In this document: piece by piece, positions 1,529 through 27,562 of the stretch
How positions within the stretch are numbered: position 1 is the first letter of the stretch
How the letters are laid out: each line of letters begins with the position of its first letter
Assembly: GCA_028287285.1 (NCBI GenBank)
Contig: JAQBPY010000309.1
Span: 1 to 34,344, forward strand
Reading direction: 5' to 3'
Length of the DNA stretch: 34,344 nucleotides
Origin: Gemmatimonadota bacterium
Lineage (GTDB): Bacteria > Gemmatimonadota > Gemmatimonadetes > Gemmatimonadales > Gemmatimonadaceae
Program-made: the position numbers and the translations under genes
Notes under the pieces: generated by a model
What the model was told of the DNA's origin: nothing
Databases searched by the model: none
The model's input: the letters and a program-made list of their open reading frames with translations, nothing else

Positions 1529-2319
1529 TTCTTTCCCCACGGATTGAACTTGTTGGCCGTGAAGCCTTCCTGCCACGTCTGAAGTGCCTCGTCGCGCTGG
1601 CCGTTGAACCAGAATGCCTTGCCGAGCTCGTAGTACGCCTCGATGAGATTGGGTCCGAGCACGAGCGTCTTCTGGAAGAACGTCTGCGCATCCTCGAACA
1701 TGTCCCGCTCGAGGTACACCAGCCCCAGGTAGAAGTGCGCGTAGAGTGTTGCCTTGCGATCGCTGTCGAGACGAATGGCGCGCGACAGATGCTCGATGGC
1801 CTCGCCGAAGATGCGCTTCTTCAGGCAGATGTAGCCGAGGTTGATGCGGGCGAGCGCGTTGGCGGGCTCGCGCATCAACACTTTCTGGAACTGCATCAGT
1901 GCTTCGTCGTACTTCTCCTGCAGCATCTGCGCCCAGCCAAGCAGCGATTCGGCCTGCGGGTCATTGGGAACGAGCTGGAGCGCTTTCGTGAGCGACTCTT
2001 CTGCCCCGATGTAGTCGCCAAGCGAGATGCGGCTCCATCCCTTCTCGATGAAGGTGGAAGCGCCGATGTGATCGACAACCACGGGCCGCTCCGCACTGAA
2101 GCTCGGCGCGACGGTGCCCTGCAGGCTCTTCCACCGCTCCACGAGGGCTTTCGCCTCTTCCTTGAGCGACGTGAGCTCCGTGAGATCGTGCTCCAGCCCC
2201 TTGCCCAGCGCAATGAGCTCGGCGCGGATGGCATCGCGCTCGCTGGCAGCAGAGGGCGCGTCGAGACGCGCGGCCAGTGCCGTGACCCGCGCGCGATGTG
2301 CTTCAACCATCTCAGTCAT
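1483..2319 (-). CDS. TPR-repeat protein with N-terminal coiled coil
   Basis: This is 278 residues. The first ~65 are charged and helical with heptad-like leucines (LTELTSLKEEAKALVERW), probably a coiled coil. From about residue 105 come at least four TPR-like units, for example GDYIGAEESLTKALQLVPND, EKYDEALMQFQKVLMREPAN, RIFGEAIEHLSRAIRLDSD and DMFEDAQTFFQKTLVLGPN. It lacks a signal peptide and is probably a cytoplasmic scaffold. The ATG at 2319 overlaps the upstream cheW stop by 8 nt (ATGACTGA), indicating translational coupling; an ATG at 2310 is the alternative start. Its place directly after two cheW genes suggests a link to the chemosensory array. The partner is not evident. Confidence 0.85.
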   Translation of the reverse strand: MTEMVEAHRARVTALAARLDAPSAASERDAIRAELIALGKGLEHDLTELTSLKEEAKALVERWKSLQGTVAPSFSAERPVVVDHIGASTFIEKGWSRISLGDYIGAEESLTKALQLVPNDPQAESLLGWAQMLQEKYDEALMQFQKVLMREPANALARINLGYICLKKRIFGEAIEHLSRAIRLDSDRKATLYAHFYLGLVYLERDMFEDAQTFFQKTLVLGPNLIEAYYELGKAFWFNGQRDEALQTWQEGFTANKFNPWGKKCAEVLKTVEEGGEP

Positions 2320-2791
2320 TGGCCAATGCCTCTGCGCCCGCATCCTGGAGCGCGATCCGATCGGTGGACGAGAGCAGCTGCTCCACGTCCAGGAACATGA
2401 CAAGCCTGTTGTCGCGACGGACGATGCCCTTGAGGTACGTACCGGCAAGGCCGCGAAACAGCTTTGGCGGTGCGGACACGTCGGTGGGAAGAAATGGTGC
2501 GACTTCGGTGACGGCGTCTACCACGGCGCCAATCCATTCGCCGCTCACATTCAGAATGAGCGTCCGCATCTCTGCGCCCACCTCCATGGGAGGCAGCTCG
2601 AACCGGCGGCGAAGATTCACCACCGGCACCACACGGCCCAGGTAATCCATGACGCCTTCGATGTACGGAGGCATGTCGGGCACCGACGTGGGGAGCGAGT
2701 ACCGGAGCACGCGCTCCACGGCATGGACGTCTGCGGCAAAGTAGTCCTGACCGAGCCGGAAGGTGACGAGCTTCTCCGCAACGCTGCTCAT
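2312..2791 (-). CDS. cheW: CheW-type chemosensory coupling protein
   Basis: This 159-residue single CheW domain begins AEKLVTFRLGQDYFAADVHAVERVLR. The characteristic core includes IEGVMDYLGRVVPVVNLRRRF and IGAVVDAVTEVAPF. CheW couples receptors to the CheA kinase on the cytoplasmic face of the membrane. Its ATG overlaps the stop codon of the preceding CheW-domain gene (ATGA). It is one of three CheW-domain proteins in the window, which suggests more than one receptor array or a division of labour among couplers. Confidence 0.92.
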   Translation of the reverse strand: MSSVAEKLVTFRLGQDYFAADVHAVERVLRYSLPTSVPDMPPYIEGVMDYLGRVVPVVNLRRRFELPPMEVGAEMRTLILNVSGEWIGAVVDAVTEVAPFLPTDVSAPPKLFRGLAGTYLKGIVRRDNRLVMFLDVEQLLSSTDRIALQDAGAEALAND

Positions 2792-3468
2792 GCTGTCTCC
2801 ACAAGGACCGCGGTCTGGCAGGCGGCAATCAGGGCGTCTGCGTCAACGATAGCCACGAGCGCGCCCGCATGACGAACCACGCCGAGCACCACGTCGCTTC
2901 CATTGTTCATCGCCGGCGCATCGCGAAGGTCACGGAGATCGAGCGTCAACGCATCTTCGACATCGTCGATGAGCACGCCCACGCGCGAATGCCCGCTCCG
3001 AAAGATGAGCACCGCGTCGCGTTGCGCGAGGGGGACTCCCAATACCTGCTGCGGCGTGTACACCGGCGTCAACGACCCACGCACATTCACGACGCCAAGC
3101 ATGGCCGGCGGCATCTCGGGCACGTAATGAATGACCGGCAGGTCGATGACTTCGTCCACAGCCAGGAGTTCCACGGCGAGCAGCTCGGTGCCCACGCGGA
3201 ACATCAGCAGCTCCGCGATGCCGGATCGCGCGCGAATGCGATCGCGCATGCGAAGGTATGGCTCACTCTCGACCACGATAACGGCGGCCCGGACGTCGTC
3301 CTGCCTGCGTGCGGCGGCGAGCGCGCGGGCCAGATCGATGGGCGTGGAAACGCGCGCCGCTCGCTGCTCCACGATTTCTTCCGCCGCGGGCTGCTCCACA
3401 ACCGCCACGGCAGGTGGCGTGGGCCGCGAGACGAACTCGCTATATCGGATGCGCCGTTTCCTGTTCAT
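2788..3468 (-). CDS. CheW-domain protein with ~85-residue N-terminal extension
   Basis: This is 226 residues. The CheW domain spans about residues 86-220 (ELLMFRVGTELLAVELLAVDEV, then PPAMLGVVNVRGSLTPVYTP and RVGVLIDDVEDAL). The first ~85 residues are basic, then rich in alanine, proline and glutamate, with a short helical stretch (PIDLARALAAARRQDDVRAA), and match nothing I recognise. The start codon overlaps the ExeA-like gene stop (ATGA). The extension may carry a localisation or docking signal that separates this coupler from its two paralogues. It is likely cytoplasmic. Confidence 0.88.
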   Translation of the reverse strand: MNRKRRIRYSEFVSRPTPPAVAVVEQPAAEEIVEQRAARVSTPIDLARALAAARRQDDVRAAVIVVESEPYLRMRDRIRARSGIAELLMFRVGTELLAVELLAVDEVIDLPVIHYVPEMPPAMLGVVNVRGSLTPVYTPQQVLGVPLAQRDAVLIFRSGHSRVGVLIDDVEDALTLDLRDLRDAPAMNNGSDVVLGVVRHAGALVAIVDADALIAACQTAVLVETA

Positions 3469-4265
3469 TCCTGGTCGTCCGCCACGTCTGCCATCAGCTC
3501 CTCGTCTATTGACGACAGCGCACGCATGGCGCCCACGAATAGTGCCTGCGTCGCCAGTGTGTTCACGCGGCGCGGCACACCGCCGCTGCGCTCGGCCAGC
3601 ATGATGACGGCGCCCTCCGTAAATATCGGCACTCCGGCGTGGCCCGCCATAGCCAACCGGTGATTCACGTAGCCAGCCACGTCCTCCGCCTCCAGCGGGT
3701 CGACGTGGAAGCGGAGACTGACACGCTGGTCGATCTGTGGGCGCTTGCGCACGCGGTCGCGCAGCTCGGGTTGGCCCAGGAGCACCACGTGAATGTGCTT
3801 GTCCTGCCTGTCTTCATGGTTCGTGAGCAGCCTGATTTCCTCGAGCACCGAGGGCGTGGCCAGCTGCGCTTCGTCCACCACGAGCACCGGCTTGCGCCCG
3901 CTCGCATGAAGCGCGTGCAGCCGTGCGCCGACGGCCTCCACCATTGCCAGCTTGCCGCGCAGCAGGGTCTCGATGCCGATCCCGCGCGCCACCGTTGCGA
4001 GCAGCTGGGCTGGCGTGAGCTTGGGGTAATGCACCTGGACCACGTCACACGCCGAGCCGGCAAGCCTGTCGGCCAGCGCCTGCGCGAGCATGGTCTTTCC
4101 GCAGCCGATCTCACCGGTGATCAGCGAAAGACCGCCGCGCAGCTCCGTGGCGTCATAGAGCAGGCGCGCAAAGCCTTCGTCAAACGATGGAGAGCGATAG
4201 ACAAACGCCGGGTCCGGCGTATTGGCGAAGGCGCGGCGCTCAAGCTTCCAGTACTCCTCGATCAT
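3465..4265 (-). CDS. ExeA/GspA-type AAA ATPase (ATPase domain only)
   Basis: This is 266 residues. The N-terminus YWKLERRAFANTPDPAFVY followed by FARLLYDATELRGG is typical of the ExeA family. Walker A is GEIGCGKT (51-58), Walker B is VLVVDEAQ, and VVLLGQPELRDRV is the expected sensor-1 region. ExeA proteins in type II secretion also carry a transmembrane helix and a peptidoglycan-binding domain; both are missing here, so this is a soluble ATPase core. It lies between cheB and cheW with ATGA overlaps on both sides, which argues for a role in the chemosensory/polarity system instead of secretin assembly. A TniB-like or MSHA-biogenesis MshM-like role is an alternative, but no transposase or pilus gene is present. 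Confidence 0.85.
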   Translation of the reverse strand: MIEEYWKLERRAFANTPDPAFVYRSPSFDEGFARLLYDATELRGGLSLITGEIGCGKTMLAQALADRLAGSACDVVQVHYPKLTPAQLLATVARGIGIETLLRGKLAMVEAVGARLHALHASGRKPVLVVDEAQLATPSVLEEIRLLTNHEDRQDKHIHVVLLGQPELRDRVRKRPQIDQRVSLRFHVDPLEAEDVAGYVNHRLAMAGHAGVPIFTEGAVIMLAERSGGVPRRVNTLATQALFVGAMRALSSIDEELMADVADDQE

Positions 4266-5341
4266 GCGACGAATGCGCGACGCGTGGCCAGCAACTGCAC
4301 AACGGCGGGGGCCACCTCATCCAGCGGCGAAACACGATCCGCGCCGGCGCGCGCCAGCGCTGCCTGGGGCATGCCGTAAATCGTGGACGTGCGCTCGTCC
4401 TGCACCACGGCGGCGCCACCCGCGCTGCGAATGGCACGCAGACCCTCCGAGCCGTCCTTGCCCATGCCGGTGAGCACCACGCCCACGCTGTTGCGGCCAA
4501 ACTGCTCGGCCACGGAACGAAAGAGCGGGTCGGCCGCGGGCCGCACTCCCCAGATGGTCGGGCCGTCGTCGAGCAGGATCTGATGTCCGCCGCCCACGCT
4601 CGCCGCAACGCGCATGTGGTGGCCACCTGGGGCTACATAGACCTTGTTGGCCTCGACATTTTCACCGTCGGCGGCCTCGCAGACCTGCAGCGCGCTCATC
4701 GCATCGAGCCGGCTCGCGAGACTTCGCGTAAAACCCACCGGCATGTGCTGAACGACGAAGACCGCAGCATCCAGGTTCGGCGGCAGGTTGGGAATCAGCT
4801 CAGCGAGCGCGCGGGGCCCGCCCGTTGACGCAGCAATCGCGATTGCCGCGGTGGCCGCCGTACCGTATGCGCGACGCACGTTGGGCGCGGCGACGCGCGG
4901 CCGCATCGGCAGCTGGACGCCGCCAAGATTGACTTCCCGGGCCGCTCGAAGGGCATCCAGCAGGGTATCGCCGATTGTCGCCAGATCGAGACTGATGGGC
5001 CCGGAGGGCTTCTTCACGAAATCGACGGCACCGATCTCGAGGCAGCGCAGGGTGAGATCCACGCTTCCGTCGGTGCCCGCGGCGCTGAGCATGACCACGG
5101 GCCTGGGGGTCTCGCTCATGATGTAGCCGAGCGTCTGCAGCCCATCGAGCACCGGCATCTCGACGTCGAGCGTCACGATCTGCGGATCGAGCGCGTGGAT
5201 CTGTTTCAGTGCATCATGGCCGTTCCGCGCCGTGCCGATCACCCGGAAATCGGGCGATGCGTCGATGATCTGCGTGATGAGCCGGCGCATGAAGGAGCTG
5301 TCGTCCACCACGAGCACGCTCGCTTGCGCGCTAGATGACAC
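4262..5341 (-). CDS. cheB: CheB protein-glutamate methylesterase/deamidase, response regulator
   Basis: This 359-residue protein has an N-terminal receiver domain with acidic pair D13/D14, phospho-acceptor D59 (TLDVEMP) and a KKPSGP loop. A ~40-residue linker leads to the methylesterase domain. The catalytic triad is recognisable as the serine of IAASTGGP, the histidine of VVQHMPVGF and the aspartate of TGMGKDG. It removes methyl groups from receptor glutamates to adapt the signal. The GTG start at 5341 overlaps the cheD stop by 11 nt. The gene is full length and ends in an ATGA overlap with the ExeA-like gene. Confidence 0.96.
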   Translation of the reverse strand: MSSSAQASVLVVDDSSFMRRLITQIIDASPDFRVIGTARNGHDALKQIHALDPQIVTLDVEMPVLDGLQTLGYIMSETPRPVVMLSAAGTDGSVDLTLRCLEIGAVDFVKKPSGPISLDLATIGDTLLDALRAAREVNLGGVQLPMRPRVAAPNVRRAYGTAATAAIAIAASTGGPRALAELIPNLPPNLDAAVFVVQHMPVGFTRSLASRLDAMSALQVCEAADGENVEANKVYVAPGGHHMRVAASVGGGHQILLDDGPTIWGVRPAADPLFRSVAEQFGRNSVGVVLTGMGKDGSEGLRAIRSAGGAAVVQDERTSTIYGMPQAALARAGADRVSPLDEVAPAVVQLLATRRAFVA

Positions 5342-5828
5342 GATCGCCCTTCTTGAGGGAACGGACCTCGACGCGCCCGTCGTCCAGGTGGAAGTACACG
5401 CTTCGGCCGTAGTCCAGCCCTGTGTCTTCGGCGAGCAGCGGGATGCCTGCTTCGGCCAGCACCGCGCGGGTGGATGCCACGTTGCGCTCGCCCACGTTCA
5501 CGCCGCTTCCCGACACCAGCTGTCCGAACATGCTCGCACCGCCCACGATTTTCGCGCTGATGCGGGCCGCGGGCGCGGAACCGAGCTTGCGCATCTCGGC
5601 CACCATGAGCGGAATGATCGTCTCGGGGAATTTCGCGGGATTGCTCGTTTCGCGGGACATCGCGCGGTTGGGCAGCAGTATGTGCGCGAGTCCGCCAATC
5701 TGGGCGTCGCGATCGTAGAGCGCGATGGCGACGCAGGAGCCCAGCCCGATGGTGGCGATGACGAGGTCGCCCTGGCGGACCGCGTAATCCGCCACCTTTA
5801 CCCGCACCGGCGTGGCCGCGTCGCTCAT
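5331..5828 (-). CDS. cheD: CheD receptor glutamine deamidase
   Basis: This is 165 residues. The catalytic triad seen in Thermotoga CheD is present with the same spacing: T26, C32 (GLGSCVAIALYD) and H49 (GGLAHILLP). The C-terminal half contains the conserved KIVGGASMF and NVGERNV segments. CheD deamidates receptor glutamines and binds CheC, which also occurs in this operon, so a B. subtilis-like CheC-CheD feedback loop is likely. The start overlaps the cheR stop (ATGA). Confidence 0.96.
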   Translation of the reverse strand: MSDAATPVRVKVADYAVRQGDLVIATIGLGSCVAIALYDRDAQIGGLAHILLPNRAMSRETSNPAKFPETIIPLMVAEMRKLGSAPAARISAKIVGGASMFGQLVSGSGVNVGERNVASTRAVLAEAGIPLLAEDTGLDYGRSVYFHLDDGRVEVRSLKKGDRVI

Positions 5829-6643
5829 AGCGGCCGAAAAACCCGCTCGCGTCCGTCCACCGCGACGAAGCGCGTGCGCGCCGCTCCGAGCAGCGTCTCG
5901 ACCTTGCCGAGCACGAGGAAACCATCCGGCGCGAGCGCCGCGTGGAACTTGTCGAACAACTTTTCCTGCGTCTCGCGGTCGAAGTAGATGAGCACGTTCC
6001 GGCAGCAGATGAGATGATGCTCGCCCGGCGGCGGCGCTTCGGCAAGGAGGTCCCTCCGCTCGAACCGAACGAGCGACTTGACGTCGGGAATGATGGCGAA
6101 GGGCGCCGTCGATGCAAAATACCTGGCACGGAGATCAGGCGGGGTATCCGCGAAATCACCTTCCTCGAAGTGGCCGGCATTGGCGGCGGCGAGGCTCCGG
6201 GCATCGATGTCGCTGCCCAGCACCGACAGGCGGGAGGCCAGTTGCGGGAGCGCTCCGCTGCGCTCCGCGTGCCGGTGAAACAGCGCCGCGAGCGAATAGG
6301 GCTCCTCACCGGAAGAACAGCCTGCACTCCACACGTTGATATCCGGCAACGGTTTATCCCAGAGGGCCGGCACGACACGCTCGGCAATGACCGAATACGT
6401 CTCCCAGTTGCGGAAGAGCTTCGTGACGTTGATGGTGAGCGCGTCGAGCAGGCGCTCGTATTCGCTGTTGTCGGCGTCCAGGATGCTGGCGTAGTCGGCA
6501 TACGTATGGACGCCGCGCGCGCGCATGCGGACGGCGATCCGGCGGCGCAGGCACTTTTCCTTGTAGCTCGCGCACCCGAATCCTTTGTCACGCGCAATCT
6601 TGTCCGTGAGCGCCACGAAGCCGGGATCGATCAGCTCGGTCAC
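5825..6643 (-). CDS. cheR: CheR chemoreceptor methyltransferase
   Basis: This is 272 residues. The N-terminal helical domain contains KEKCLRRRIAVRMRARG and TINVTKLFRN. The SAM-binding domain has VWSAGCSSGEEPYSLA, LGSDID and ICCRNVLIYFD, all CheR hallmarks. It methylates receptor glutamates using S-adenosylmethionine. The start is GTG at 6643, directly abutting the TAA of the DUF4388-TPR gene (TAAGTG). No TPR extension is present, unlike many Myxococcus-type CheR proteins, but a separate TPR protein is encoded just upstream. Confidence 0.96.
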   Translation of the reverse strand: MTELIDPGFVALTDKIARDKGFGCASYKEKCLRRRIAVRMRARGVHTYADYASILDADNSEYERLLDALTINVTKLFRNWETYSVIAERVVPALWDKPLPDINVWSAGCSSGEEPYSLAALFHRHAERSGALPQLASRLSVLGSDIDARSLAAANAGHFEEGDFADTPPDLRARYFASTAPFAIIPDVKSLVRFERRDLLAEAPPPGEHHLICCRNVLIYFDRETQEKLFDKFHAALAPDGFLVLGKVETLLGAARTRFVAVDGRERVFRPL

Positions 6644-8263
6644 TTACAGCACCTGCCGGACAGCGTCGAGATTGGTACGCACGATTGCGTTCGTGGGATC
6701 CAGCGCCAACGCGTGCTCCCAGCACTGCACCGCCTCGTCGCGCTCCTGCCGCTTGAAGCGAATGTTGCCAAGCTTCATGTAGACGTCGTCGCCGAGGTCC
6801 GGGGTGAGCTTGATGGCGCGCAGGTAGCACTCCATCGCATCGTCATAGCGCGCTGCGCGGTAGTGGCAGTCGCCGAGGTTCTTGTGAATCTGCGCGAGTC
6901 CCGTGTCTTCCTGAAGACCGCGCTCAGCCGCTTGCAGCGCATCCGGGTGATACCCGCGGCGCTCCTGCACCGCGGCCATGTTGTTATACAGCGGCGCGGC
7001 ATGCGGATGGGCACCGATGCCCTCGAGGAGCACGGTGTGTGCGCGCTCGAGATCGCCCAGCAAGGCTGCCGTGAGCGCGGAATAATGATACCACGGCGCC
7101 GTTGGCGGCTTGGTGCCGAAGAGTGTCCGGGCAACCTGAAAGGCCGCGTCCGCGGCCGACACGTCACCCGCCCTGAGCGCGACGACGCCGAGTGACGTCT
7201 GGATGCGTGGGTCCTTGGCGCCGCCGCGGCGCATCGCTCCGTCCAGCGCACTCTTTGCTTCCTCGTACCGGCCCAGGCGCTCGAGGGCGTGCGCCAAGTT
7301 GTGAAAGGCCGCGGGCCGCGCGCCGGGATGGGACACACATTCCCGAAAGGCGGACACCGCTTCTGTCCACTTGTTCTGGCGCATGAGCGCGAGTCCCACG
7401 TAGAAGCGCGCTTCGGCGTCGTGCTCGCGCAGCTCCGTGACGCGGCGGAACTCGCGCATCGCCTCGTCGAGCATGCCCGTCTTGTAGAATGCGATGCCCA
7501 GGTTGCGATGTTCGTCGACGCGCGCGTCGCTCACGGAGGGCTCCACGCCGCGCGACTTGCCCACGCGCTGCGTGAAGCCGGCGGTGACCAGGCCGTAGAT
7601 GACCTTTCCCACCTCGAACTCGCCGAGCCCCGAGTCTTCGATGATGGCGGTCACGTCGCGCCGCCCGTCGAGCAGCGACACGACCACCTTCTGCTCGCGC
7701 GTGAGCTCCACGCCTGTCTCGGCGAGCTTGGCGGTGTCGACGTCGAATACGAGGTCGAGGCTCGGAATCTTCTTCTCGATCAGGCTCCATTCGTCGAGGC
7801 GCCGCGCTCCCTCGAGCAGCAGCGACTCCGGATGGATGGACACGAGCAGGTCCTGCTCTTCCGGGTAGACGTCGGCCTCGAAGTTGAACGTCCCCTGGGT
7901 CCATGTAAAGAGATAGTAAACAGCCTCTTCGATCTGAATGCGGATCTGTGCATGCAGCGCTTCACGGGAAATCGAGCCCTGCGCCACCAGCAGCTCCCCG
8001 ATCCGCTTATCGCGATGTAAAGACTGCGCCTCGATGGCCGCGTCCAGCTGCTGCTGGGAAATCGCCCCCGCCTTGAGCAGGATGTCCCCGATTCGGTCCC
8101 GCCGGTTGACGATGGACGCGTACGAGATGAGCCCCTTGTTGAAGTAGACGTACCCGAAGTTGCTCCGGTGCGTCACCGCAAGGCAGCCCGTCTTCTTCCC
8201 CATGGCCAGGAGCTGCAGCACATCGGGGAGACTGGCCTCCTTGAGACTGCCCTTGATGGCCAT
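6644..8263 (-). CDS. DUF4388 (PATAN-like) protein with C-terminal TPR array
   Basis: This is about 539 residues starting MAIKGSLKEASLPDVLQLL. Residues ~1-130 form a DUF4388 domain: LLAMGKKTGCLAVTH, then GYVYFNKGLISYAS and IGDILLKAGAIS. A second conserved region (LLLEGARRLDEWSLI, GEFEVGKVIYGLVTAGF) follows. The C-terminal ~280 residues are TPR repeats such as GMLDEAMREFRRVTELREHD, ARYDDAMECYLRAIKLTPD and ERDEAVQCWEHALALDP. DUF4388/PATAN proteins occur in cyanobacterial and myxobacterial signalling linked to pili and gliding. The ATG overlaps the stop of the tandem DnaA-like gene (TGATG), so the two are probably made together. It shares its middle region with the gene at 12470-13522, pointing to duplication. 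Confidence 0.88.
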   Translation of the reverse strand: MAIKGSLKEASLPDVLQLLAMGKKTGCLAVTHRSNFGYVYFNKGLISYASIVNRRDRIGDILLKAGAISQQQLDAAIEAQSLHRDKRIGELLVAQGSISREALHAQIRIQIEEAVYYLFTWTQGTFNFEADVYPEEQDLLVSIHPESLLLEGARRLDEWSLIEKKIPSLDLVFDVDTAKLAETGVELTREQKVVVSLLDGRRDVTAIIEDSGLGEFEVGKVIYGLVTAGFTQRVGKSRGVEPSVSDARVDEHRNLGIAFYKTGMLDEAMREFRRVTELREHDAEARFYVGLALMRQNKWTEAVSAFRECVSHPGARPAAFHNLAHALERLGRYEEAKSALDGAMRRGGAKDPRIQTSLGVVALRAGDVSAADAAFQVARTLFGTKPPTAPWYHYSALTAALLGDLERAHTVLLEGIGAHPHAAPLYNNMAAVQERRGYHPDALQAAERGLQEDTGLAQIHKNLGDCHYRAARYDDAMECYLRAIKLTPDLGDDVYMKLGNIRFKRQERDEAVQCWEHALALDPTNAIVRTNLDAVRQVL

Positions 8264-10185
8264 CAGCGCAGCTCCTCCACCAGACGGCCCGCGACGTCGG
8301 GCCATTCCCAGATGATCTTCTCGTCGTCCAGAAAGAACGTATCCGCCGCCTGCCGCACGGCGAGTGGCGCGGTGGTTGGCGTCATTCCCGAGGGCTCCAG
8401 CACCTGCCGGCCAAGGGCAAGCGTGAGCGGACCTCCGTTGACCTCGACTCCCGCACGCAGGCGCTGCACCGTGCCCATCAGCTCCCGAACGCTCGTTGCC
8501 GGCCGGTCTGCCAGGTAGGAGATCAGCTCGGGTGCCGTGTTCAACCGCGCATCGGCCAGAAAACGCGAAAACAGCTTTTCACGCAGAATTCGATCCGGCG
8601 GGCCGAGCTCGGCGACCAGTCCACCTTCGAATCTGGAGCGCAGGCGATCTTCGAGCCCGTCAATGGCCTTGGGGGGCAGGTCGCCGGCAAAGACGAGCTG
8701 CTTGCCCGCGGAATGAAAATGGTTGAAGACGTGGAACAGCTCCTCCTGCGTCCGTTCCTTGGAGGCGACGAATTGGACGTCGTCGATGAGCAGCACATCC
8801 GCCGCACGGTAGCGCGCGCGAAAGCGCTCGATCGTGCCCTCCTGCAATGCGGCAATCAGCTCGTCCACGAACACACCCGCCCCAACGCATGCGATGCGTC
8901 CCGGCGTGCCGCTCCGCGATGCAAGCTCGTTGCCGATGGCGTTGAGCAGGTGCGTTTTGCCCACGCCGCTGGGGCCGTGCAGGAACAGCGGATTGTAGCG
9001 ATGGCCAGGTTCGGCGATGACTGCGTCCGCGGCGCGGACGGCCATCTGGTTGGAACTGCTCTCCTCGTACGCGGCGCGTGCGAACGCAGGCTGCGGCCCG
9101 CCAGGCGGCACGGCGCCCGCGAGTGCGTGCTCCACGAATGCCATCGTTTCGGACAGGCGCTCCGGATCACGAAAGCGCTCGTCGCCGCCGAGCTGCGGAT
9201 CCACCGTGGTGACCTGCCGCTCCAGCTCGCGCAACTGCTCCACTGCCTGGGCATAGCCGCGCAGCACCGCCTCGTAATTGGGCGGCGGCGCCGGTTCGGC
9301 CATCATCCGCTCGAGCGCCGTGGTGCGATACCCTTCGCCGCCCCAGTAAGCGACCGCCTCACCGACGCGCACCTTCCACGGCTCCACGTGCGCGGCAACG
9401 GCGCTCGCAATGTCCGTCAGGAAGCTGAAGAACTCGTCCGTCTCCACCGAGCTGCGCGCCGGTCGCGGAATGGGGCCGGGAATGCCCACGATGCCGCGCA
9501 CCATGGCCGGCGTGAGCGTGCCATCAACGGCCTGCTGTGCGCTGAGCTTGTTCATCGCGCCCTGGAGCTCGCGGATGTTCCCGAACTCCGCGCGCGCCAG
9601 CTCCTCGATCACGCCGGGCGCAAACACGAGCTTTCGCTCGTCACACTTCTCGCGCAGGATCGCCACCCGGGTCTCGTAGTCCGGGGTGCCGATGTCGACG
9701 ATCAATCCCCCACTCAGGCGGCTGATGAGCCGCTCGTCGACGTCGGGAATCTCGGTGGGGGGACGATCGCTCGTCATGATGATCTGTCGGCCGCTGCCCT
9801 GCAGCGTCGTCAACAGGCGCAGCAGCTCGGACTGCGTTTCACGCCGCCCCGTGAGGAACTGCATGTCGTCCACCAGCAGCACGTCCACCCGGCCGTACCG
9901 CTGCTTGAAGCGCTCGATCTGGCCTGCGGCGATTGCCGCATGCAGCTGCTGGACGAAATCCTCGAGTGCCACGTACTCGACCGTCGTTTCCGGCGCGCGC
10001 TGCTGTGCGTGGTTGCCGATGGCGCCGATGAGATGCGTTTTGCCCAACCCCGAGCTGCTGTAGATGAAGAGCGGGTTGTAGATCGCCCCGGGCGACTCCG
10101 CCACGGCTCGCGCGGCTGCGACGGCGAGGCGATTCGCCGAGCCGACCACGTAGTTGTCGAACCTGGCACGCGGATCAACCTGCAT
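8263..10185 (-). CDS. Tandem DnaA-like AAA+ protein lacking the DNA-binding domain
   Basis: This 640-residue protein carries two complete DnaA domain-III-like AAA+ modules. Module 1 (about 5-235) opens like DnaA (RFDNYVVGSANRLA, YNPLFIYSSSGLGKTH at 36-51), with Walker B LLVDD (103-107), sensor 1 IIMTSDRPPTEI, DERLISRL (150-157) and sensor II GNIRELQGA (202-210). Its Walker A first glycine is serine (S43). Module 2 (about 368-600) has an intact GPSGVGKT (404-411), LLIDD (465-469), arginine-finger region LRSRFEGG (515-522) and SVRELMG (565-571), but sensor 1 is altered to FAGDLPPKAI. A ~130-residue helical linker joins them. The helix-turn-helix domain IV that binds DnaA boxes is absent from both. 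It sits 2 nt after the MglA-like gene and overlaps the DUF4388-TPR gene. The function is unknown; it should not be called chromosomal initiator. Confidence 0.9.
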   Translation of the reverse strand: MQVDPRARFDNYVVGSANRLAVAAARAVAESPGAIYNPLFIYSSSGLGKTHLIGAIGNHAQQRAPETTVEYVALEDFVQQLHAAIAAGQIERFKQRYGRVDVLLVDDMQFLTGRRETQSELLRLLTTLQGSGRQIIMTSDRPPTEIPDVDERLISRLSGGLIVDIGTPDYETRVAILREKCDERKLVFAPGVIEELARAEFGNIRELQGAMNKLSAQQAVDGTLTPAMVRGIVGIPGPIPRPARSSVETDEFFSFLTDIASAVAAHVEPWKVRVGEAVAYWGGEGYRTTALERMMAEPAPPPNYEAVLRGYAQAVEQLRELERQVTTVDPQLGGDERFRDPERLSETMAFVEHALAGAVPPGGPQPAFARAAYEESSSNQMAVRAADAVIAEPGHRYNPLFLHGPSGVGKTHLLNAIGNELASRSGTPGRIACVGAGVFVDELIAALQEGTIERFRARYRAADVLLIDDVQFVASKERTQEELFHVFNHFHSAGKQLVFAGDLPPKAIDGLEDRLRSRFEGGLVAELGPPDRILREKLFSRFLADARLNTAPELISYLADRPATSVRELMGTVQRLRAGVEVNGGPLTLALGRQVLEPSGMTPTTAPLAVRQAADTFFLDDEKIIWEWPDVAGRLVEELR

Positions 10186-10187
10186 GG

Positions 10188-10796
10188 CTACCGGCTTCCG
10201 CCCGCATTGCCGGTGCTCAGGCGACGAAGGACGATTTCGGATATCCCCCTGAGCGTCTCGAATACTCCCGGCCCATGAAGCGCATCCGCGGAAAAGTCGG
10301 GCACTCCCCGAAAATTGATCGCATCGGACAGCTCGGCCACCGGCAGGACGAGCTCGGGGGGCAGGTCCTGCTTGTTGTACTGCACGACCAGTGGCATGGC
10401 GCGCGGATCGATGCCTTGGTCGCCCAGGTTCGCATGCAGGTCCTGGAAGCTCTCGATGTTCTCGTCGAGCTGGCGCGCCTGGCTGTCGGCCACGAACACC
10501 ACACCGTCCGCACCCTGCAGCACGAGCTTTCGTGTTGCCTGGTAGTACACCTGGCCCGGCACCGTATACAGCTGGAATTTGGTCGTGAACCCCGAGATGG
10601 AGCCCAGGTCCAGGGGCAGGAAGTCAAAGAACAGGGTGCGATCGGTTTGCGTGGCGAGCGAGACCATCTTGCCGCGCCGGTCTTCCGGGACCTGGCCGTA
10701 GATGTAATGCAAATTCGTCGTCTTCCCCGAGCGGCCTGGCCCGTAGTAGACGATCTTGCAGGTGATCTCGCGCGTGGCGTAGTTGACGAGCGACAC
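10188..10796 (-). CDS. mglA: MglA-type small Ras-like GTPase
   Basis: This is 202 residues. The start VNYATREITCKIVYYGPGRS matches the MglA family. The P-loop is GPGRSGKT (19-26). Switch regions follow as ATQTDRTLFFDFLP and YTVPGQVYY, the latter with TVPGQ in place of the Ras DxxG, as in MglA. The base-recognition motif is NKQDLP. MglA of Myxococcus is a polarity switch that sits at the leading cell pole and directs gliding and type IV pili; roadblock-fold MglB is its GAP. Roadblock genes lie directly upstream here. The gene starts with GTG 27 nt after the roadblock stop, the largest gap in the operon, and ends 2 nt before the tandem DnaA-like gene. Confidence 0.93.
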   Translation of the reverse strand: MSLVNYATREITCKIVYYGPGRSGKTTNLHYIYGQVPEDRRGKMVSLATQTDRTLFFDFLPLDLGSISGFTTKFQLYTVPGQVYYQATRKLVLQGADGVVFVADSQARQLDENIESFQDLHANLGDQGIDPRAMPLVVQYNKQDLPPELVLPVAELSDAINFRGVPDFSADALHGPGVFETLRGISEIVLRRLSTGNAGGSR

Positions 10797-10823: not shown

Positions 10824-11297
10824 CTAGGCGCGGCCAAAGAGAACTGCGAGGTTGCGATTCAGGTCCTGCTCGAAGTGCTCGGCCAGCGCTGGCGCTGGTG
10901 TTGCTCCTTCGGGTGGCGCGGCAGCGACGAGTCGTGCGGCCAATTCGTCAAAATAGAGGCGAACCATGCCGATGGAGCTTTCCGCGCCGAACACCGTCAG
11001 GAAAATGTACGCTCCGCGCCGCGAGCGTGCTTCCGCCAGGAAGATCTGGCGGCTTACACCCACATGGTGCAACCCGGCAAACGGACGCTCGTCGAGCATG
11101 CGGCCAAGCTCATCGCTCGTTGCATGAATTCCCGCAGCAAGCGCGCACGCCGACATCACGTCAACCGAACGGGCGAAGCCGTGCTGGGCCAGCACCTGGC
11201 CGCTGGGATGCAGGAGCAGCGCGAGCTCCACGCCGGCATCGTCCACAAAATGGCGCAGCGGCGTTTCGATCCACGACTCCACCACACTGGTGATCAT
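10824..11297 (-). CDS. Roadblock/LC7 protein, MglB-like candidate
   Basis: This is 157 residues with a single roadblock/LC7 fold: ELALLLHPSGQVLAQHG, a central helix with CALAAGIHATSDELGRML, and GAYIFLTVFGAESSIGMVRLY in the last strand and helix. The order of these elements and the start of the final helix resemble MglB, the GTPase-activating partner of MglA. A proline/alanine-rich stretch and a C-terminal helix (ALAEHFEQDLNRNLAVLF) follow the domain. It is the gene directly before mglA. An MglB role is inferred from the fold and neighbour, not demonstrated. The start overlaps the previous roadblock gene (ATGA). Confidence 0.82.
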   Translation of the reverse strand: MITSVVESWIETPLRHFVDDAGVELALLLHPSGQVLAQHGFARSVDVMSACALAAGIHATSDELGRMLDERPFAGLHHVGVSRQIFLAEARSRRGAYIFLTVFGAESSIGMVRLYFDELAARLVAAAPPEGATPAPALAEHFEQDLNRNLAVLFGRA

Positions 11298-11662
11298 GTG
11301 GGCCGGCCCCCATACGCGGCGAGCTCACTGACGGCCCGCAACATGGCCACCCGGACCATGCCGACGTTCACGACCGACGCAGCAACCACGACAAGGACGA
11401 GATCGCCTGCACCGGCAGCGCAAAGGCGGCCGTGAGGCGCCTCGAGTTGCATGAACGAAACGGCGCCCAACCCCGCCGCCTGTGACGACAACCGGGCCTT
11501 GCGGTAGAGGGAGGCCGCAAGTGCCGCGACCCGATCGCCGGACTGACCGATCTGCACATTCGAGTCGACGACAATTCCGTCCTGCTCCAGCACGACGAGT
11601 GCGGCCGTGACCCCTCGCTGGCGCGAGATCGCCTGCAGCATGCTCGTGAATGGTGTGGACAT
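11294..11662 (-). CDS. Roadblock/LC7 domain protein
   Basis: This is 122 residues, essentially one roadblock/LC7 domain. VTAALVVLEQDGIVVDSNVQ forms the first hairpin, GDRVAALAASLYRKA the central helix and LCAAGAGDLVLVVVAASVVN the later strands. VGMVRVAMLRAVSELA is the final helix. Proteins of this fold dimerise and regulate Ras-like GTPases. It is one of three roadblock modules encoded in a row before the MglA-like GTPase. Start and stop overlap the flanking genes (TGATG and ATGA). Homo- or heterodimerisation with the neighbouring roadblock protein is plausible. Confidence 0.82.
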   Translation of the reverse strand: MSTPFTSMLQAISRQRGVTAALVVLEQDGIVVDSNVQIGQSGDRVAALAASLYRKARLSSQAAGLGAVSFMQLEAPHGRLCAAGAGDLVLVVVAASVVNVGMVRVAMLRAVSELAAYGGRPT

Positions 11663-12477
11663 CAGACGCCCGCCTCCAACCAGCCACGCGCACGCGCCGA
11701 GCAGTGATCGAGCAGCCGGCGGACCAGCCCGAGGGGCGTGGCACGCGACGTTGCGAGCACCAGGAGCCCATCCTGCGGCGACGGCGCCATTGCGACCACG
11801 GCGACCTCCGTCTCGAACACGATGGACGTCCAGTCTCCCATGGCGAGATGGCGCGTGGTACGCCGCGCCGCATCGGTCACCCCGCTCAACTCGGCGCCGA
11901 TATCCTGCGCAACGTCACGTCCATCGTCGGCCACATAGGCGCCCGCCAGCACGAGACCGTCGCGGTCGAGCAGCAGCGCCGTCTGGCCTTCGTCGCGGAG
12001 CACGTCCACGAAGAGAAAGCGGCTGTCATCCGGATATTCCGCAGCGAGGGCAACCTCCGTGGAGCGCCTGACCTCCGCATGCGCTTCGCGCACGTGCTGC
12101 AGCGCCGTCGTCACCTGGACATCGGTGGCCTCCGCTGCCGCGGCGGCCGCGAGATACCGCTCCGCGTCGATGAACCGCTCGCGCTGGAAGCAGATGAAGC
12201 CCATGCCCTTGAGCGCGCCGGCGTGGCCCGGCGAGAGCCGCAACACCATGTCCCATTCGTCGAACGCGCGCTCGATGTCGCCGCGATCGACGTAGATGCG
12301 CGCCAGCAGGTCGTGCCCTTCGGCAAGATGCGGGTGTCGCTCGAGACCACGTAGCGCCACCTTGAGCGCAAGCTCGTGCTGATGCTGCTGGCGAAGCGCT
12401 TCACCAAGTGGCACGAAGACCCTGCTCCCGGGCTCGTGCGCCAGCTCGTCACTCATGCGCCGCATGTCGTCACCCAT
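11662..12477 (-). CDS. TPR protein with C-terminal roadblock-like domain
   Basis: This is about 271 residues from the ATG at 12477; ATGs at 12465 and 12456 are alternatives. Residues ~20-130 form TPR-like helices (HELALKVALRGLERHPHL, GDIERAFDEWDMVLRLSPGH, RFIDAERYLAAAAAAEA). Residues ~145-270 look like a roadblock/LC7 domain: FVDVLRDEGQTALLLDRDGL, DIGAELSGVTDAARRTTRHL, SIVFETEVAVVAMAPSP and LGLVRRLLDHC. The combination suggests an adaptor that brings TPR ligands to the GTPase module. The start overlaps the DUF4388 gene by 8 nt, and the stop overlaps the next roadblock gene (TGATG). Confidence 0.8.
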   Translation of the reverse strand: MGDDMRRMSDELAHEPGSRVFVPLGEALRQQHQHELALKVALRGLERHPHLAEGHDLLARIYVDRGDIERAFDEWDMVLRLSPGHAGALKGMGFICFQRERFIDAERYLAAAAAAEATDVQVTTALQHVREAHAEVRRSTEVALAAEYPDDSRFLFVDVLRDEGQTALLLDRDGLVLAGAYVADDGRDVAQDIGAELSGVTDAARRTTRHLAMGDWTSIVFETEVAVVAMAPSPQDGLLVLATSRATPLGLVRRLLDHCSARARGWLEAGV

Positions 12478-13522
12478 TGGCGTGCGCCTCCGTGACGTGG
12501 AGCAGTCGTCCAAGTGCTTCGATCGCCTCGCGCACGCGGCTCACCTGCGACGAGGCGGGCGCGAGCCGGAGAAAATGCTCCCAGCTTGCGCGTGCGTTCG
12601 CGAAATCGCCCACACGCACCGCGGCGAATCCCAGCTCCAGGTGTACCTCCGGCGTGAGCGGATCTTCGCGCACGGCCCGCCGGAGCAGCTCCACCGCTTC
12701 CTGGTAGCGGGACGACCGCGTCAACTGGCGTGCCTCCTCCAACCGCGTGCGCGTCGAATCTTCGGCGCGAGTGATGGCCGCAATGGACGGGTTCGTGGGC
12801 CGTTCCGGAACGCCGATCTCAACTACACCTGTAGTTACAAGGCCGTAAACGATCTTGGCCACCTCGAATTCCCCGGCGCCCAGCGCCGCGGCGATGGCGC
12901 GAAGATCGCGGCCCCCGTCGATCATCATGAGCACTTCCCACTCGTGTGGCAGCAGGTCGAGCACGGATGCGCGGTCGTCCATCACGGGAGCAAGCATGGC
13001 GATGACACCGAGGCTGGGCACCTTGTCCGCGATGCGCGACCACTCATCGATGCGCCGCGCACCCTCCATGAGCAATGATTCCGTGGAAATCCGGATGCGT
13101 GCGTCAACGGAAGCGCTCGATACACTGCCCTCCTCGAACGAAAAGAACCCTTCGCGCCACGACATCAGCTCGAAGATGACGTTCTCGATGGCCTGCTTCA
13201 GCTGGCGTTCGAGCTCGCGCTGCGTGATGGCGCGGGCCAGCACGAGCCGGTCGCCCAGGCCAAGGCCCGAATCGTCCGCGATGGCCTTTGCGGCGGCGAT
13301 CTCCTCGTCGCTGATGCGGCCGGCCTGGCGCAGAATGCGCTCGATCGACGTGGGGTTGCTCTTGATGCTCGCATGAATCACGCGGCCGCCGTCGAACAGC
13401 ACATGTCCTTCGTCGTCACGCAAATCCGACGTGACCCGCAGCGCGCCCGTCTTCCTGCTCAGGTCGAGCAGCTGGAACACATCGTGGATGCCCAGCTCGC
13501 GCAGCGGCCCTTCAATCGCCAT
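12470..13522 (-). CDS. DUF4388 (PATAN-like) protein with short TPR tail
   Basis: This is 350 residues. The N-terminal DUF4388 domain begins MAIEGPLRELGIHDVFQLLD and includes LSRKTGALRVTS, GHVLFDGGRVIHASI and IERILRQAGRIS. The middle region LLMEGARRIDEWSRI with GEFEVAKIVYGLVTTG matches the paralogue at 6644-8263 almost word for word. The tail holds about two TPR units (SRYQEAVELLRRAVREDPLT, GDFANARASWEHFLRLAPAS). The start lies 2 nt after the stop of the 909-residue TPR gene. By analogy with PATAN proteins it may transmit signals to motility or pilus components; its target is unknown. Confidence 0.86.
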   Translation of the reverse strand: MAIEGPLRELGIHDVFQLLDLSRKTGALRVTSDLRDDEGHVLFDGGRVIHASIKSNPTSIERILRQAGRISDEEIAAAKAIADDSGLGLGDRLVLARAITQRELERQLKQAIENVIFELMSWREGFFSFEEGSVSSASVDARIRISTESLLMEGARRIDEWSRIADKVPSLGVIAMLAPVMDDRASVLDLLPHEWEVLMMIDGGRDLRAIAAALGAGEFEVAKIVYGLVTTGVVEIGVPERPTNPSIAAITRAEDSTRTRLEEARQLTRSSRYQEAVELLRRAVREDPLTPEVHLELGFAAVRVGDFANARASWEHFLRLAPASSQVSRVREAIEALGRLLHVTEAHANG

Positions 13523-13524
13523 GC

Positions 13525-16254
13525 TCAGCCGCCTCCCGTGGTGGCAAAGATGGCCTGCAAGTCGGCGGCAGTGCGTGCGTCACGACGCGCGCGCCGCGCG
13601 TATTCTCCACCCGGATCGATATCGAGCACCCGAGCCCAGCGTATCGCCGCATCGCGGTAGCGCTTCTGGTCGTTCAGCAACACGCCGTCGTAGTACAGCG
13701 CGCCCACGTGCGATGGATCGAAGCGCAGGATGCGACGGAAGGCGTTGCGCGCCTCCTCCGATTTGCCAAGCGCGATGAGTGTTTCACCGAGTGCGAGCAT
13801 GGCTTCGAAGTGATACGGGTCGCGCTCGAGCAAGGCGATGAGCTGTGAGAGCGCATCTTTCGCGTGGCCGGCCGCGCTGCGTACGGACGCCAGCTCGAGC
13901 GTCGCCTCCGCGTAGGTGGGAACGGCGTCGAGCGCGGCGATGAGCTGTTGCTCGGCTTCGCGCAGCTGCCCCTTTGAGCGCAGTACCCGCGCCAGCTGAA
14001 AGCGCACGACGGCGAGGTCACCGTCGAGCTCCAGCGCCCGCCTGTATGCTACGATCGCCCCCTCGTTGTCGCCAAGCGAGCGGGCGATGTCACCCATGCG
14101 CTGGTGGACGTCCGGCCGTTGCGGCGCGAGCATGCGTGCCTGCTTCAATGCCGCGAGCGCTGACGCCGGATCGCCCGTATCCGCGCGTGCCGCCGCGGCC
14201 AGCATCACGATGTCGACGTCGAGCGGCGCCGCCTCGAACAGCGCTTCCGCAATGGGGCTCGCCTCCCGCGCGCGGTGCATGGCAAGCAGGGACCACGCCT
14301 CGCCCTTTCGTGGCCGAACGGCATCCGGCGCGGCCATGCGAGCCTCGCGAAAGCGTTCGATGGCCTCACCATGCAGCCCCTGACGCGCGTAGATCTCGCC
14401 AAGGAGCGTATATCCCTCCGTGCTCGGTGCCCCGCGCGACATGGCCCGACTCACCTCCGCCGCGGCGCGGTCCATCATGCCCATTCCCAGGTAGTCCGCC
14501 GCCATGCCGTACGGATCGCTGCCCGATTCCGGGCGCGGTTCCGCCTCTCGGCGCGCTGTTGGCGCGAGCGAGACGAACAATGAATCGAGCACGTTCGCAT
14601 CGAACGCAAAATCCTCGACCGCATCAACCGTCCGCTCGATTGCGCCGACGTCGGGCTTGATGGAAAGATCCGGATTCTCGTACTCCAGGTCGATGGCGAG
14701 ATCGAACTTCTGCGAGACGTAGTAGGGATCGAGCTCCAATGCGCGCTTCGTCTCGCGCAGCGCACCTTCGAAGTCGCCGAGGTTGGAGAGTGTGAAGCTG
14801 AGGTTGTAGTGCGCTTCCGCAAAATCCGGCCTGGACTGCACCGCGCGCGCGAACGCATTTCGCGCGTCAGCGAACCGGCGGAGCTCAGCCAGCACCACGC
14901 CAATGCCGTTCCACGCCGACGCATCCTCCGGTGCGGCCTGGAGCACGCTGCGATAGGCTTCGAGCGCAAGCTGGAAGCGCCTGGCCTTGCTTAACAGGAG
15001 GGCCAGGTTGAGTCGGGCTTTCGCGAACGTTGGCTGATACCGCAGCGCATTCCAGAACGCGTCAATGGCGCCCTCGACGTCGCCAGTGTGGTACCTGGCA
15101 ACGCCAAGGTTGTTGTGCGCGAGCGAGTAGCTGTCGTCGGCCTGCACGGCGCGGTGATAACTCTCGAGCGCTTCGGCAAAAAGGCCCTCCTGATGCAGCG
15201 CCACGCCCCGCTCGTTCCACAGCTTGGGACTGATGGGGGTGAGCGCGAGCAGCTCGTCATACAGCACCACCGCGGCCTTTGGCTCGCGGCGCAGGAGGTG
15301 TACTTCAGCCATGGCCTGGAGCACCAGCTGGCGGTCTTCGCCGCGCTCCAGCGCCTTCGTGTATTCGCGGAGCGCTTCTCCGTAGTAGCCCTTTTGCCGG
15401 AAGGCGAGGCCGAGGTTGTATTGCGCGAGCTGTCCTTCGCGCATGACCTCCATGGCCTGTGCGCGCGCGGTGGAAACGCGCATCGAGGAGCGTACGGGTG
15501 TTTGGTGACTGTCCCTCGGACTGGCCCGGCGATCCTCGATGGCAAGGTTGGCCTGGGCGCGCGACAACGTGGGATTCAGCTGAATGGCACGGCGCGTGAC
15601 CTCGCGCGCTTCTTCATGCATGCCCAGGTCGCCGAGCACGAACCCCATGAGATAGTAGGCGTCGGGATTCTGCGGATTCAGCTCGACCGCGCGACGGAGC
15701 GCCGCCAGTGATCCCTCGCTCACGCCCCGGTTATACAGCACTTCGCCCACGTAGAAGCTCACCACGGAGCTCGCCGGATCGAGCGTGAGTGCGCGCTCGA
15801 GGTAGCTCAGTGCCTTGTCGAGATCCCCATTGGTCCGCTCGGCGAGGCCCAACTGCACCAGCGCACCGATATCGGTGGGATGATACCGCAACAATTCTGT
15901 GAATTCCTGTACGGCATCCGCCGTCTGGCCAAGCAGCGCATGCGTGCGCCCCAGCTCCCAGCGCGCCTCTCGGTCATCAGGGCGCGCACGAAGCCGTTCA
16001 ACCAGCTCCGCCACGCGCTTGTCGTAATAGCCCGTGTTGAAGTACGCGATCTCCAGGTTGCGCTGCGCCACCTGCATCTTTGCGTCCAGCTCGAGTGCGC
16101 GCATGAGCGCACTGACGGCTTCCTCGTAGAGGCCCTTCTTGTAGTACAGGACCCCAAGGTTGTTGTGCGCACCCGCGTCGGAAGGGTCGATACGCCGCGC
16201 GAACGACCGCAGGGCATCGCGGTCGCGCTCGGAGGTCATCACGGATGCGGTCAT
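13525..16254 (-). CDS. Large TPR-repeat scaffold protein (909 aa)
   Basis: This 909-residue protein is built almost entirely of TPR-like repeats. Examples are HNNLGVLYYKKGLYEEAVSA near the N-terminus, AQYNLGLAFRQKGYYGEALR near residue 300 and HNNLGVARYHTGDVEGAIDA near 380. ALGKSEEARNAFRRILRFDP lies near 850. Two interruptions without clear TPR signature occur, around residues 245-285 (serine/arginine-rich) and 535-600 (containing EYENPDLSIKPDVG). There is no signal peptide or transmembrane helix. It is probably a cytoplasmic scaffold for the chemosensory/GTPase proteins encoded on both sides. The ATG at 16254 lies 21 nt after cheC; an in-frame ATG at 16239 is an alternative. Confidence 0.87.
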   Translation of the reverse strand: MTASVMTSERDRDALRSFARRIDPSDAGAHNNLGVLYYKKGLYEEAVSALMRALELDAKMQVAQRNLEIAYFNTGYYDKRVAELVERLRARPDDREARWELGRTHALLGQTADAVQEFTELLRYHPTDIGALVQLGLAERTNGDLDKALSYLERALTLDPASSVVSFYVGEVLYNRGVSEGSLAALRRAVELNPQNPDAYYLMGFVLGDLGMHEEAREVTRRAIQLNPTLSRAQANLAIEDRRASPRDSHQTPVRSSMRVSTARAQAMEVMREGQLAQYNLGLAFRQKGYYGEALREYTKALERGEDRQLVLQAMAEVHLLRREPKAAVVLYDELLALTPISPKLWNERGVALHQEGLFAEALESYHRAVQADDSYSLAHNNLGVARYHTGDVEGAIDAFWNALRYQPTFAKARLNLALLLSKARRFQLALEAYRSVLQAAPEDASAWNGIGVVLAELRRFADARNAFARAVQSRPDFAEAHYNLSFTLSNLGDFEGALRETKRALELDPYYVSQKFDLAIDLEYENPDLSIKPDVGAIERTVDAVEDFAFDANVLDSLFVSLAPTARREAEPRPESGSDPYGMAADYLGMGMMDRAAAEVSRAMSRGAPSTEGYTLLGEIYARQGLHGEAIERFREARMAAPDAVRPRKGEAWSLLAMHRAREASPIAEALFEAAPLDVDIVMLAAAARADTGDPASALAALKQARMLAPQRPDVHQRMGDIARSLGDNEGAIVAYRRALELDGDLAVVRFQLARVLRSKGQLREAEQQLIAALDAVPTYAEATLELASVRSAAGHAKDALSQLIALLERDPYHFEAMLALGETLIALGKSEEARNAFRRILRFDPSHVGALYYDGVLLNDQKRYRDAAIRWARVLDIDPGGEYARRARRDARTAADLQAIFATTGGG

Positions 16255-19247: not shown

Positions 19248-19703
19248 TTAGAGCAGTACCTGCGTCACCAACGCCTGAATGTCCACGACGATGACGACGT
19301 CGTCACCGAGCTGGCCCAACCCCCGTACGAGCCCCCGGGGCGCATCCACCGCGCCGCCGGCCGCCCCCATCTGTTCCTCCGTAATCGCCTGCACGTCCAG
19401 CACTTCGTCCACCGCCACCCCCACGACTCTTGCACCATGGGTCGCCAGAATGATGGAGCCATCCCGCACCATGGGCCGCGTTGCGTCGAGGCGCACACCG
19501 AGGTCGAGCACCGTGACGATCGTTCCCCGCAGGTTGATCAGCCCCTGCACGTGCGCCGGCGCACCAGGGAGGCGCGTGGCTCGCCGGTAGGGAATTATCT
19601 CCCGGACCGCCGCGATGTCACATCCATACGTCCGCTCGGCCACCCGGAACAGGAGTGTCCGTGCAGCCGCTCGTACCTCAGGAATCGTCTCGGAAGAAGC
19701 CAA
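19248..19703 (-). CDS. cheW: CheW-type chemosensory coupling protein
   Basis: This is about 151 residues from a TTG start at 19703. The CheW domain is clear: TLLFRVAERTYGCDIAAVRE, then HVQGLINLRGTIVTVLDLG and VVGVAVDEVLDVQ. The TTG lies inside the 3' end of rluD, 26 nt overlapping, with GGAG 4 nt upstream as ribosome-binding site. An ATG further upstream at 19739 is less likely because it adds non-conserved residues. It links the rluD end of the housekeeping block to the chemosensory block and couples receptors to the CheA encoded two genes on. Confidence 0.9.
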   Translation of the reverse strand: MASSETIPEVRAAARTLLFRVAERTYGCDIAAVREIIPYRRATRLPGAPAHVQGLINLRGTIVTVLDLGVRLDATRPMVRDGSIILATHGARVVGVAVDEVLDVQAITEEQMGAAGGAVDAPRGLVRGLGQLGDDVVIVVDIQALVTQVLL

Positions 19704-21230: not shown

Positions 21231-21241
21231 GTGCGGCGCGG

Positions 21242-22211: not shown

Positions 22212-22214
22212 GTG

Positions 22215-27551: not shown

Positions 27552-27562
27552 AACACGGGAAT

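Follow-up and report, generated by a model that had tools for sequence, protein, structure and literature searches.

The characterised AAA+ proteins of the DnaA type are known for their action on replication. In this work, we have used profile searches, structure prediction and genome comparison to study a gene of a different setting, which lies in a stretch of 34,344 nucleotides (the window, taken at its full length) from a Gemmatimonadota bacterium (assembly GCA_028287285.1, contig JAQBPY010000309.1). The gene, at 8263-10185 on the minus strand, codes for a protein with two modules of the DnaA domain III type, and it sits among chemosensory (che) and mgl genes, next to a gene for a DUF4388-tetratricopeptide repeat (TPR) protein; DUF4388 corresponds to the PATAN domain. 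A Gemmatimonadota family tied to mglA and to a PATAN-TPR protein of the cyclic di-GMP (c-di-GMP) type would show that a DnaA-type ATPase can be reused for cell polarity. With moderate confidence, we favour the reading that this protein serves an MglA-type polarity module as an adaptor, derived from a duplicated DnaA domain III, and is not a replication initiator.

Four described systems come close. With DnaA domain III (TIGR00362; PDB 8bv3, 8btg) the window protein shares the fold and, in both modules, the full AAA+ motif set (phmmer gives 188 bits to 8bv3), but it lacks domain IV, starts at domain III, carries two modules, falls into clades of its own and is encoded in a che/mgl operon. Hda (TIGR03420) is likewise a DnaA-like AAA+ protein without domain IV, whereas our family stays below the Hda cut-off, usually has two modules with a linker and a tail, and has another gene context. 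The pilus polarity system of Myxococcus xanthus (MglA-SgmX-FrzS-SopA) also combines MglA with a TPR effector; in the part of the report available to us (PMC11580455) no DnaA-type ATPase is described, and in our system PATAN, MshEN and TPR are found in one protein. Finally, the MshEN c-di-GMP receptors (PMC5013675; PDB 5htl) have two tandem 24-residue motifs, as does the DUF4388-TPR partner; the partner differs in that its motifs are inserted in the DUF4388/PATAN domain, with a spacer slightly longer than 5 residues, and in that no PilB-type ATPase is attached.

Results

The Bac_DnaA family (PF00308) matched the window protein twice (360.9 bits against a Pfam cut-off of 23), at 10176-9694 (E 3e-56) and at 9066-8611 (E 3e-51), and the best PDB match by Foldseek was Bacillus subtilis DnaA domain III (TMt 0.92). 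The AlphaFold model, built on an alignment of 19 rows (the window protein, four double-module relatives and 14 DnaA domain-III fragments), has two compact, well-folded modules, joined by a helical linker (about residues 260-358), and ends in a disordered tail (599-640) that contains a single short helix (mean predicted local distance difference test, pLDDT, 81.7; predicted TM-score, pTM, 0.47). An earlier note on this DNA had described two DnaA domain-III modules on a helical linker within 8263-10185, without a DNA-binding domain, and this observation is confirmed: domain IV (PF08299) was not found in the window protein at E <= 0.01. Domain I is missing as well, as the open reading frame begins at domain III with no N-terminal extension. 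Across the window genome PF08299 was unmatched at E <= 0.001; at 84% completeness, this tells nothing about the initiator of the genome. The gene and its parts are the following:

8263..10185, minus strand: gene of the proposed DnaA-derived adaptor, double AAA+ module, 640 amino acids (Pfam, reading, AlphaFold)
9487..10185, minus strand: module 1 (residues 1-233), DnaA domain III, conserved ATPase, with Walker A at residues 43-50, Walker B D106-D107, arginine-finger box R152/R156 and sensor II R205 (Pfam, motif alignment, AlphaFold)
9112..9438, minus strand: linker (residues 250-358), first helix with the motif EFxxFLxD(I/V), then a helical bundle (no Pfam match; AlphaFold)
8392..9084, minus strand: module 2 (residues 368-598), DnaA domain III, with P-loop at residues 404-411 and arginine-finger box R514/R518, intact in the window protein and decaying in relatives
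8266..8334, minus strand: C-terminal tail (residues 618-640), proposed docking motif EKIIWEWPDVAGRLVEELR, Trp628 in 58/58 proteins

The linker of the window protein matched no Pfam family at E<=0.05; among 34 linkers compared with Pfam, ABC_tran_CTD appeared in 4 members (best 8.9e-5) and 12 other families in one member each. The tail is conserved in the family as EKxxWxWPD..R(L/I)xEE, a feature that had gone unmentioned before. The whole window protein scores 511.3 with TIGR00362, the NCBIfam equivalog model of DnaA (cut-off 343.9; module 1 alone 276.3, module 2 alone 240), and since it passes this cut-off although domain IV is missing, the gene may be annotated automatically, and misleadingly, as dnaA.

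The double-module protein is a widespread Gemmatimonadota family, separate from canonical DnaA. At least 135 of 249 genomes of the phylum match its profile at E 1.8e-64 or better among the matches listed, while genomes expected to hold canonical DnaA only give E values of roughly 1e-46 to 1e-62. Of the 101 genomes searched for canonical DnaA with PF08299, 96 have it, and the family protein is thus a paralogue. The domain was not found in G024, G092, G038 and G042 (94-98% complete) nor in G000 (84%), maybe through an assembly gap. In the domain-III tree (93 of 217 rows, with 11 module-2 rows, all those of groups f4 and f5 and that of L048, excluded beforehand; midpoint root, for drawing only), module 1 (support 100/98), module 2 (100/100) and the canonical rows (98/96) form three separate groups, and the single-module forms L072-L074 fall within the module-1 group. 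Where both genes share a contig, canonical dnaA is distant from the family gene, as in G019 (C1:1217 and C1:1693244); dnaN was not searched for.

In a profile search of genome contigs aimed beyond this phylum, 5 of the 80 loci kept (not the full list) are family members (L106-L110), whose records are named as Gemmatimonadetes, Gemmatimonadaceae or Gemmatimonas sp.; the other 75 match DnaA domain III, with domain IV unchecked. The linker profile, which recovered 25 of 30 Gemmatimonadota genomes (it missed 2 carriers of minimal forms and 3 genomes without a hit above the canonical level), found no member in 13 single genomes nor in 148 genomes of another phylum. In the 118 genomes of a further phylum, 5 of them matchless, no match of the full profile spanned both modules among the matches listed, and three of the top loci end, by reading, in domain IV-like sequence. 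These searches, of small coverage, suggest that the family is absent outside Gemmatimonadota. In the phylum of the 118 genomes, a 437-residue frame (G364:C155:1616-2233) gave two partial family-profile matches (positions 2-60 and 459-577) and probably holds one DnaA-like domain. Among the PubMed Central (PMC) matches listed (titles and abstract starts, subscription papers being outside the scope), there was no description of this protein, and no paper joined Gemmatimonadetes, MglA and DnaA.

The ATPase motifs were followed in 58 distinct proteins, obtained by deduplication of 70 (30 best hits and 40 loci picked for spread, not at random). In module 1, G48 and K49 of Walker A and D106 and D107 of Walker B are each kept in 58/58; 53 proteins keep the arginine-finger pair R152/R156, and 56 keep sensor II. 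The P-loop of module 1 in the window protein (SSSGLGKT) had been read as degenerate; this is not a trait of the family, in which its first Gly is S, G or A in 27, 27 and 4 proteins. Module 2, in 54 double proteins, retains Walker A, Walker B and the finger pair together in 41; 7 have lost both Walker motifs and keep both arginine-finger residues (7/7; six from f5, one from f4), 4 have lost Walker B only and keep the fingers, and 2 (L057 and L059) keep both Walker motifs and miss the finger pair. The asymmetry noted earlier is thus real, but its direction is reversed: the P-loop of module 2 is intact in the window protein, as had been said, yet in relatives this is the decaying partner, and module 1 is the conserved ATPase. 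Loss of the P-loop with retention of the finger is the pattern expected of a finger donor. The ATPase motifs are also kept in the four single-module proteins of the set. Mean majority conservation is 0.66 in module 1 against 0.28 in the stretch 226-248, and the 34-row family alignment includes members with as little as 33% identity to the window protein. At the equivalent of E. coli R245, a residue that binds single-stranded DNA, 48 of 58 module 1s have Glu and 50 of 54 module 2s have Arg. DnaA-like DNA binding is unlikely because module 1 mostly has Glu at this position and domain IV is missing.

Reduced forms of the protein occupy the same gene slot. The slot set comprises 72 distinct proteins, most of them gathered by a filter that demanded the tail Trp. 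In the scan of 63 loci with this filter, 6 loci lacked the partner N-terminus (L211, L212, L219, L220, L224 and L225), 4 lacked a slot frame (L037, L064, L216 and L221), and two gave wrong short frames (L069 and L196); L037, L064 and L069 are present in the 58-protein set, themselves or as an identical copy, and L196, L216 and L221 were read apart. Most slot proteins (55/72) have at least 580 residues. Eight have a single module (330-420 residues; f6, f9, g7 and, in a degenerate form, g15), one (L199 of g22, 204 residues) consists of linker and tail with both AAA+ modules gone, and eight are minimal forms of 65-81 residues from two genera (g3/g13), at whose loci mglA and the partner stay in place. 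An EF..F helix like that of the linker start is present in 8/8 minimal forms (7 by script, L196 by reading), and one of their tails reads LIVEWPNIADRMIEEMR. The tail Trp occurs in 72/72 slot proteins, mostly selected for it, but also in 58/58 of the unselected family set and in L216; L221 (G052) is a shortened form that has lost it. Where the tail motif was found, the protein ends 12 residues past it, with L068 (11), L074 (15), and L073 and L075 (17 each) as exceptions. In the partner tree (FastTree, midpoint root), the reduced forms lie in several separate branches (g7, g15/g22, g3/g13, f6 and f9). The C-terminal tail and the helix motif that opens the linker thus persist longest in the family, and these natural truncations, from 640 to about 70 residues, offer a ready dissection of the purpose of the protein.

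The gene order of the neighbourhood was compared in 40 loci (L036-L075), chosen for spread. The gene directly downstream codes for a DUF4388-TPR protein in 40/40, and the gene directly upstream is mglA in 34, RluD in 5 and a contig edge in 1, so the strictest coupling is to the DUF4388-TPR gene. The order that recurs, with some losses, is cheA-cheC-TPR-DUF4388-TPR/roadblock-roadblock-roadblock-mglA-[gene]-DUF4388-TPR-cheR-cheD-cheB. A DnaA paralogue embedded in an MglA/chemosensory operon and coupled to a DUF4388-TPR gene had been proposed from the window alone, with conserved mglA linkage across Gemmatimonadota named beforehand as support; the relatives support this, the linkage being conserved in the class. 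Five f5 loci include upstream sequence, and in these the gene and its partner follow ileS-rluD without a local che/mgl block, with weak cheY-like matches (28-33%) downstream in some. MglA is encoded elsewhere in 17/17 f5 genomes with the gene and in 4/15 without a hit above the canonical level; in other groups it was found in 1/8 (f7, a marginal match), 0/2 (f8) and 0/4 (f10). Some f5 MglA hits were flagged for an internal TGA; in the only alignment seen with a stop (L201), it is at the C-terminal end.

The partner gene and its motif pair are:

6644..8263, minus strand: DUF4388(PATAN)-MshEN-TPR partner gene, whose start codon shares one base with the stop codon of the DnaA-like gene (reading)
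7928..8104 (approximate ends), minus strand: two MshEN-like c-di-GMP motifs, located within the partner's DUF4388 domain

The NCBIfam model of the c-di-GMP MshE motif scores 45.5 on the partner (cut-off 38), the segment matches PilF and MshE structures (MshE 5htl, E 5e-5), and the partner has the two RLGxx..G..L...L..Q motifs published for MshEN receptors (PMC5013675). Over 44 members, Arg, Gly, Leu and Gln are kept in 43, 43, 44 and 41 first copies and in 36, 40, 43 and 42 second copies; in some members, such as L109, the motifs are degenerate. A model from 5 rows (mean pLDDT 83.6) has four helices in the insert and a TPR superhelix. The insert is missing from the partners of 8/8 minimal forms (7 by script, L196 by reading) and kept with 44/44 longer slot forms (43 by regular expression, L197 by reading). 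L213 was left out of the partner tree, its partner being cut by a contig end. At L219 (G084), with an operon-type mglA, no DUF4388-TPR N-terminus was detected in the 8.3 kb covered.

Discussion

What is the role of a DnaA-type ATPase in an mgl operon? Starting from the observed family, its context, the reductive series and the motifs, we infer a scheme for how the partners bind, how ATP exerts control and how this acts on pili. Because two short segments outlast all else, with the AAA+ modules as an extra layer that has an intact ATP site, we propose an adaptor that assembles under the control of ATP and c-di-GMP. The tail, the linker or both would attach to the DUF4388-TPR protein, with its TPRs as a possible site, and the EFxxF helix or the modules would face MglA or the roadblock proteins. 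Module 1 with ATP may self-assemble as DnaA domain III does, and module 2 may supply the arginine finger that completes or caps the module-1 site, although this finger could also come from a neighbour; in f5 and in one f4 protein, module 2 would be a P-loop-less pseudo-ATPase. The partner may sense c-di-GMP by its MshEN insert and relay it through the linker bundle; the pattern of L199, which has the linker without any AAA+ module, fits a contact of the insert with the linker rather than with the AAA+ part. ATP state and c-di-GMP would then set the amount of an MglA/PATAN-TPR complex, with Che proteins as the input and, probably, control over type IV pili as the result. Three published findings make pilus polarity likely here: in cyanobacteria PilB1 is bound by PATAN-REC proteins (PMC9090330), the effect of MglA on type IV pili goes through the TPR protein SgmX (PMC11580455), and mglA has been described close to PATAN genes before (PMC4316618). 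We put forward only tentatively, as possible rather than probable, the broader idea that a DnaA-clade AAA+ module was taken from replication to become a polarity scaffold gated by ATP and c-di-GMP, with one ATPase and one dedicated arginine-finger pseudo-ATPase. If this is true, the minimal adaptor would be seen in the lineages that have kept only a 70-residue peptide.

Several points weigh against this scheme. The partner of the tail is a guess from adjacency. The gene pilT does not point to pili, being over the cut-off in 63/67 genomes with or without the gene. The joint loss of the MshEN insert and the linker is probably one event, because the 7 minimal forms placed in the partner tree form one clade (in a tree built without the insert columns), and L199 keeps the insert, so the modules themselves do not track it. 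The seven finger retentions come from related lineages and are not independent, representing few events. The orientation of the two modules to each other is unreliable in the model (pTM 0.47). Residues like the K/R of the initiator-specific motif (ISM) are kept in module 2, so some nucleic-acid contact is possible. Finally, MglA is present in each of nine f1 genomes that lack a full-length hit; four of them (G010, G047, G080 and G159) carry a reduced form, and the other five are without a demonstrated form.

Replication could still be the target. The protein might be an Hda-like or DnaA-titrating regulator, in which module 1 or 2 pairs with the domain III of canonical DnaA, so that polarity is coupled to replication or the cell cycle. 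The domain III fold with intact ATP and arginine-finger sites, the canonical DnaA of 96/101 genomes and the lack of domain IV, which is also missing in Hda, would all suit such a regulator. However, the NCBIfam Hda cut-off (194.8) is not reached by the whole protein (168.5) or by the modules alone (82.9 and 92.3), by reading there is no sequence ahead of domain III that could carry an N-terminal clamp motif, the gene is tied to its mgl/DUF4388 context, and the AAA+ parts are lost while the gene slot stays. We therefore consider this regulator distinctly unlikely. The earlier note had also raised a link between replication state and polarity, for which we find no support: canonical dnaA is elsewhere where both genes share a contig, as in G019, and both AAA+ modules can vanish while the peptide remains. 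As a whole its interpretation is partly supported.

Two further explanations were considered. The AAA+ part could be an ATPase that remodels MglA/roadblock or Che complexes, putting them together or taking them apart, akin to a helicase loader acting on a protein partner; mglA and roadblock genes adjoin, and a lone module occurs in several lineages, four of these proteins in the 58-protein set with their ATPase motifs kept. Yet mglA and the partner stay where the AAA+ part is gone (L199 of g22) or only the minimal peptide is left (g3/g13), and this explanation is unlikely. Alternatively, the AAA+ modules may be decaying passengers without an active role, only the tail peptide being of importance, as the losses in several lineages and the minimal forms could indicate; we regard this as very unlikely, since the ATP site of module 1 persists in 58/58 proteins of a family so diverged, and module 1 is much better conserved than the stretch 226-248. 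The adaptor of the MglA-type module remains the reading that we favour.

Other genes of the locus

The genes around the pair in the window are:

10188..10796, minus strand: gene for an MglA-like small GTPase (named by reading; Arf in Pfam, 23.5 bits, cut-off 22.3)
10824..11297, minus strand: Roadblock/LC7 protein (weak MglB-like match, 28.1 against an NCBIfam cut-off of 200)
11294..11662, minus strand: second roadblock/LC7 protein
11662..12471, minus strand: TPR and roadblock protein, start approximate
12470..13522, minus strand: second DUF4388-TPR protein
13525..16254, minus strand: TPR protein, 909 amino acids
16276..19778, minus strand: CheC-like (Pfam), then CheA, CheY and CheW genes (last three by reading)
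2312..6643, minus strand: CheR, CheD, CheB, ExeA-like ATPase (Pfam AAA_22) and two CheW genes (names by reading)

The ExeA/AAA_22-type ATPase (3465-4265, minus strand) lies between the cheB and cheW genes, and a relative is present in some loci only (for example L036, L038, L040 and L041). A yggS-ORF177-(pnp)-ileS-(lspA)-rluD block stands upstream in the window (19678-27578) and, partly or wholly, in the f5 loci (L067-L071); in L068 and L069 the counterpart of ORF177 resembles DivIVA by eye.

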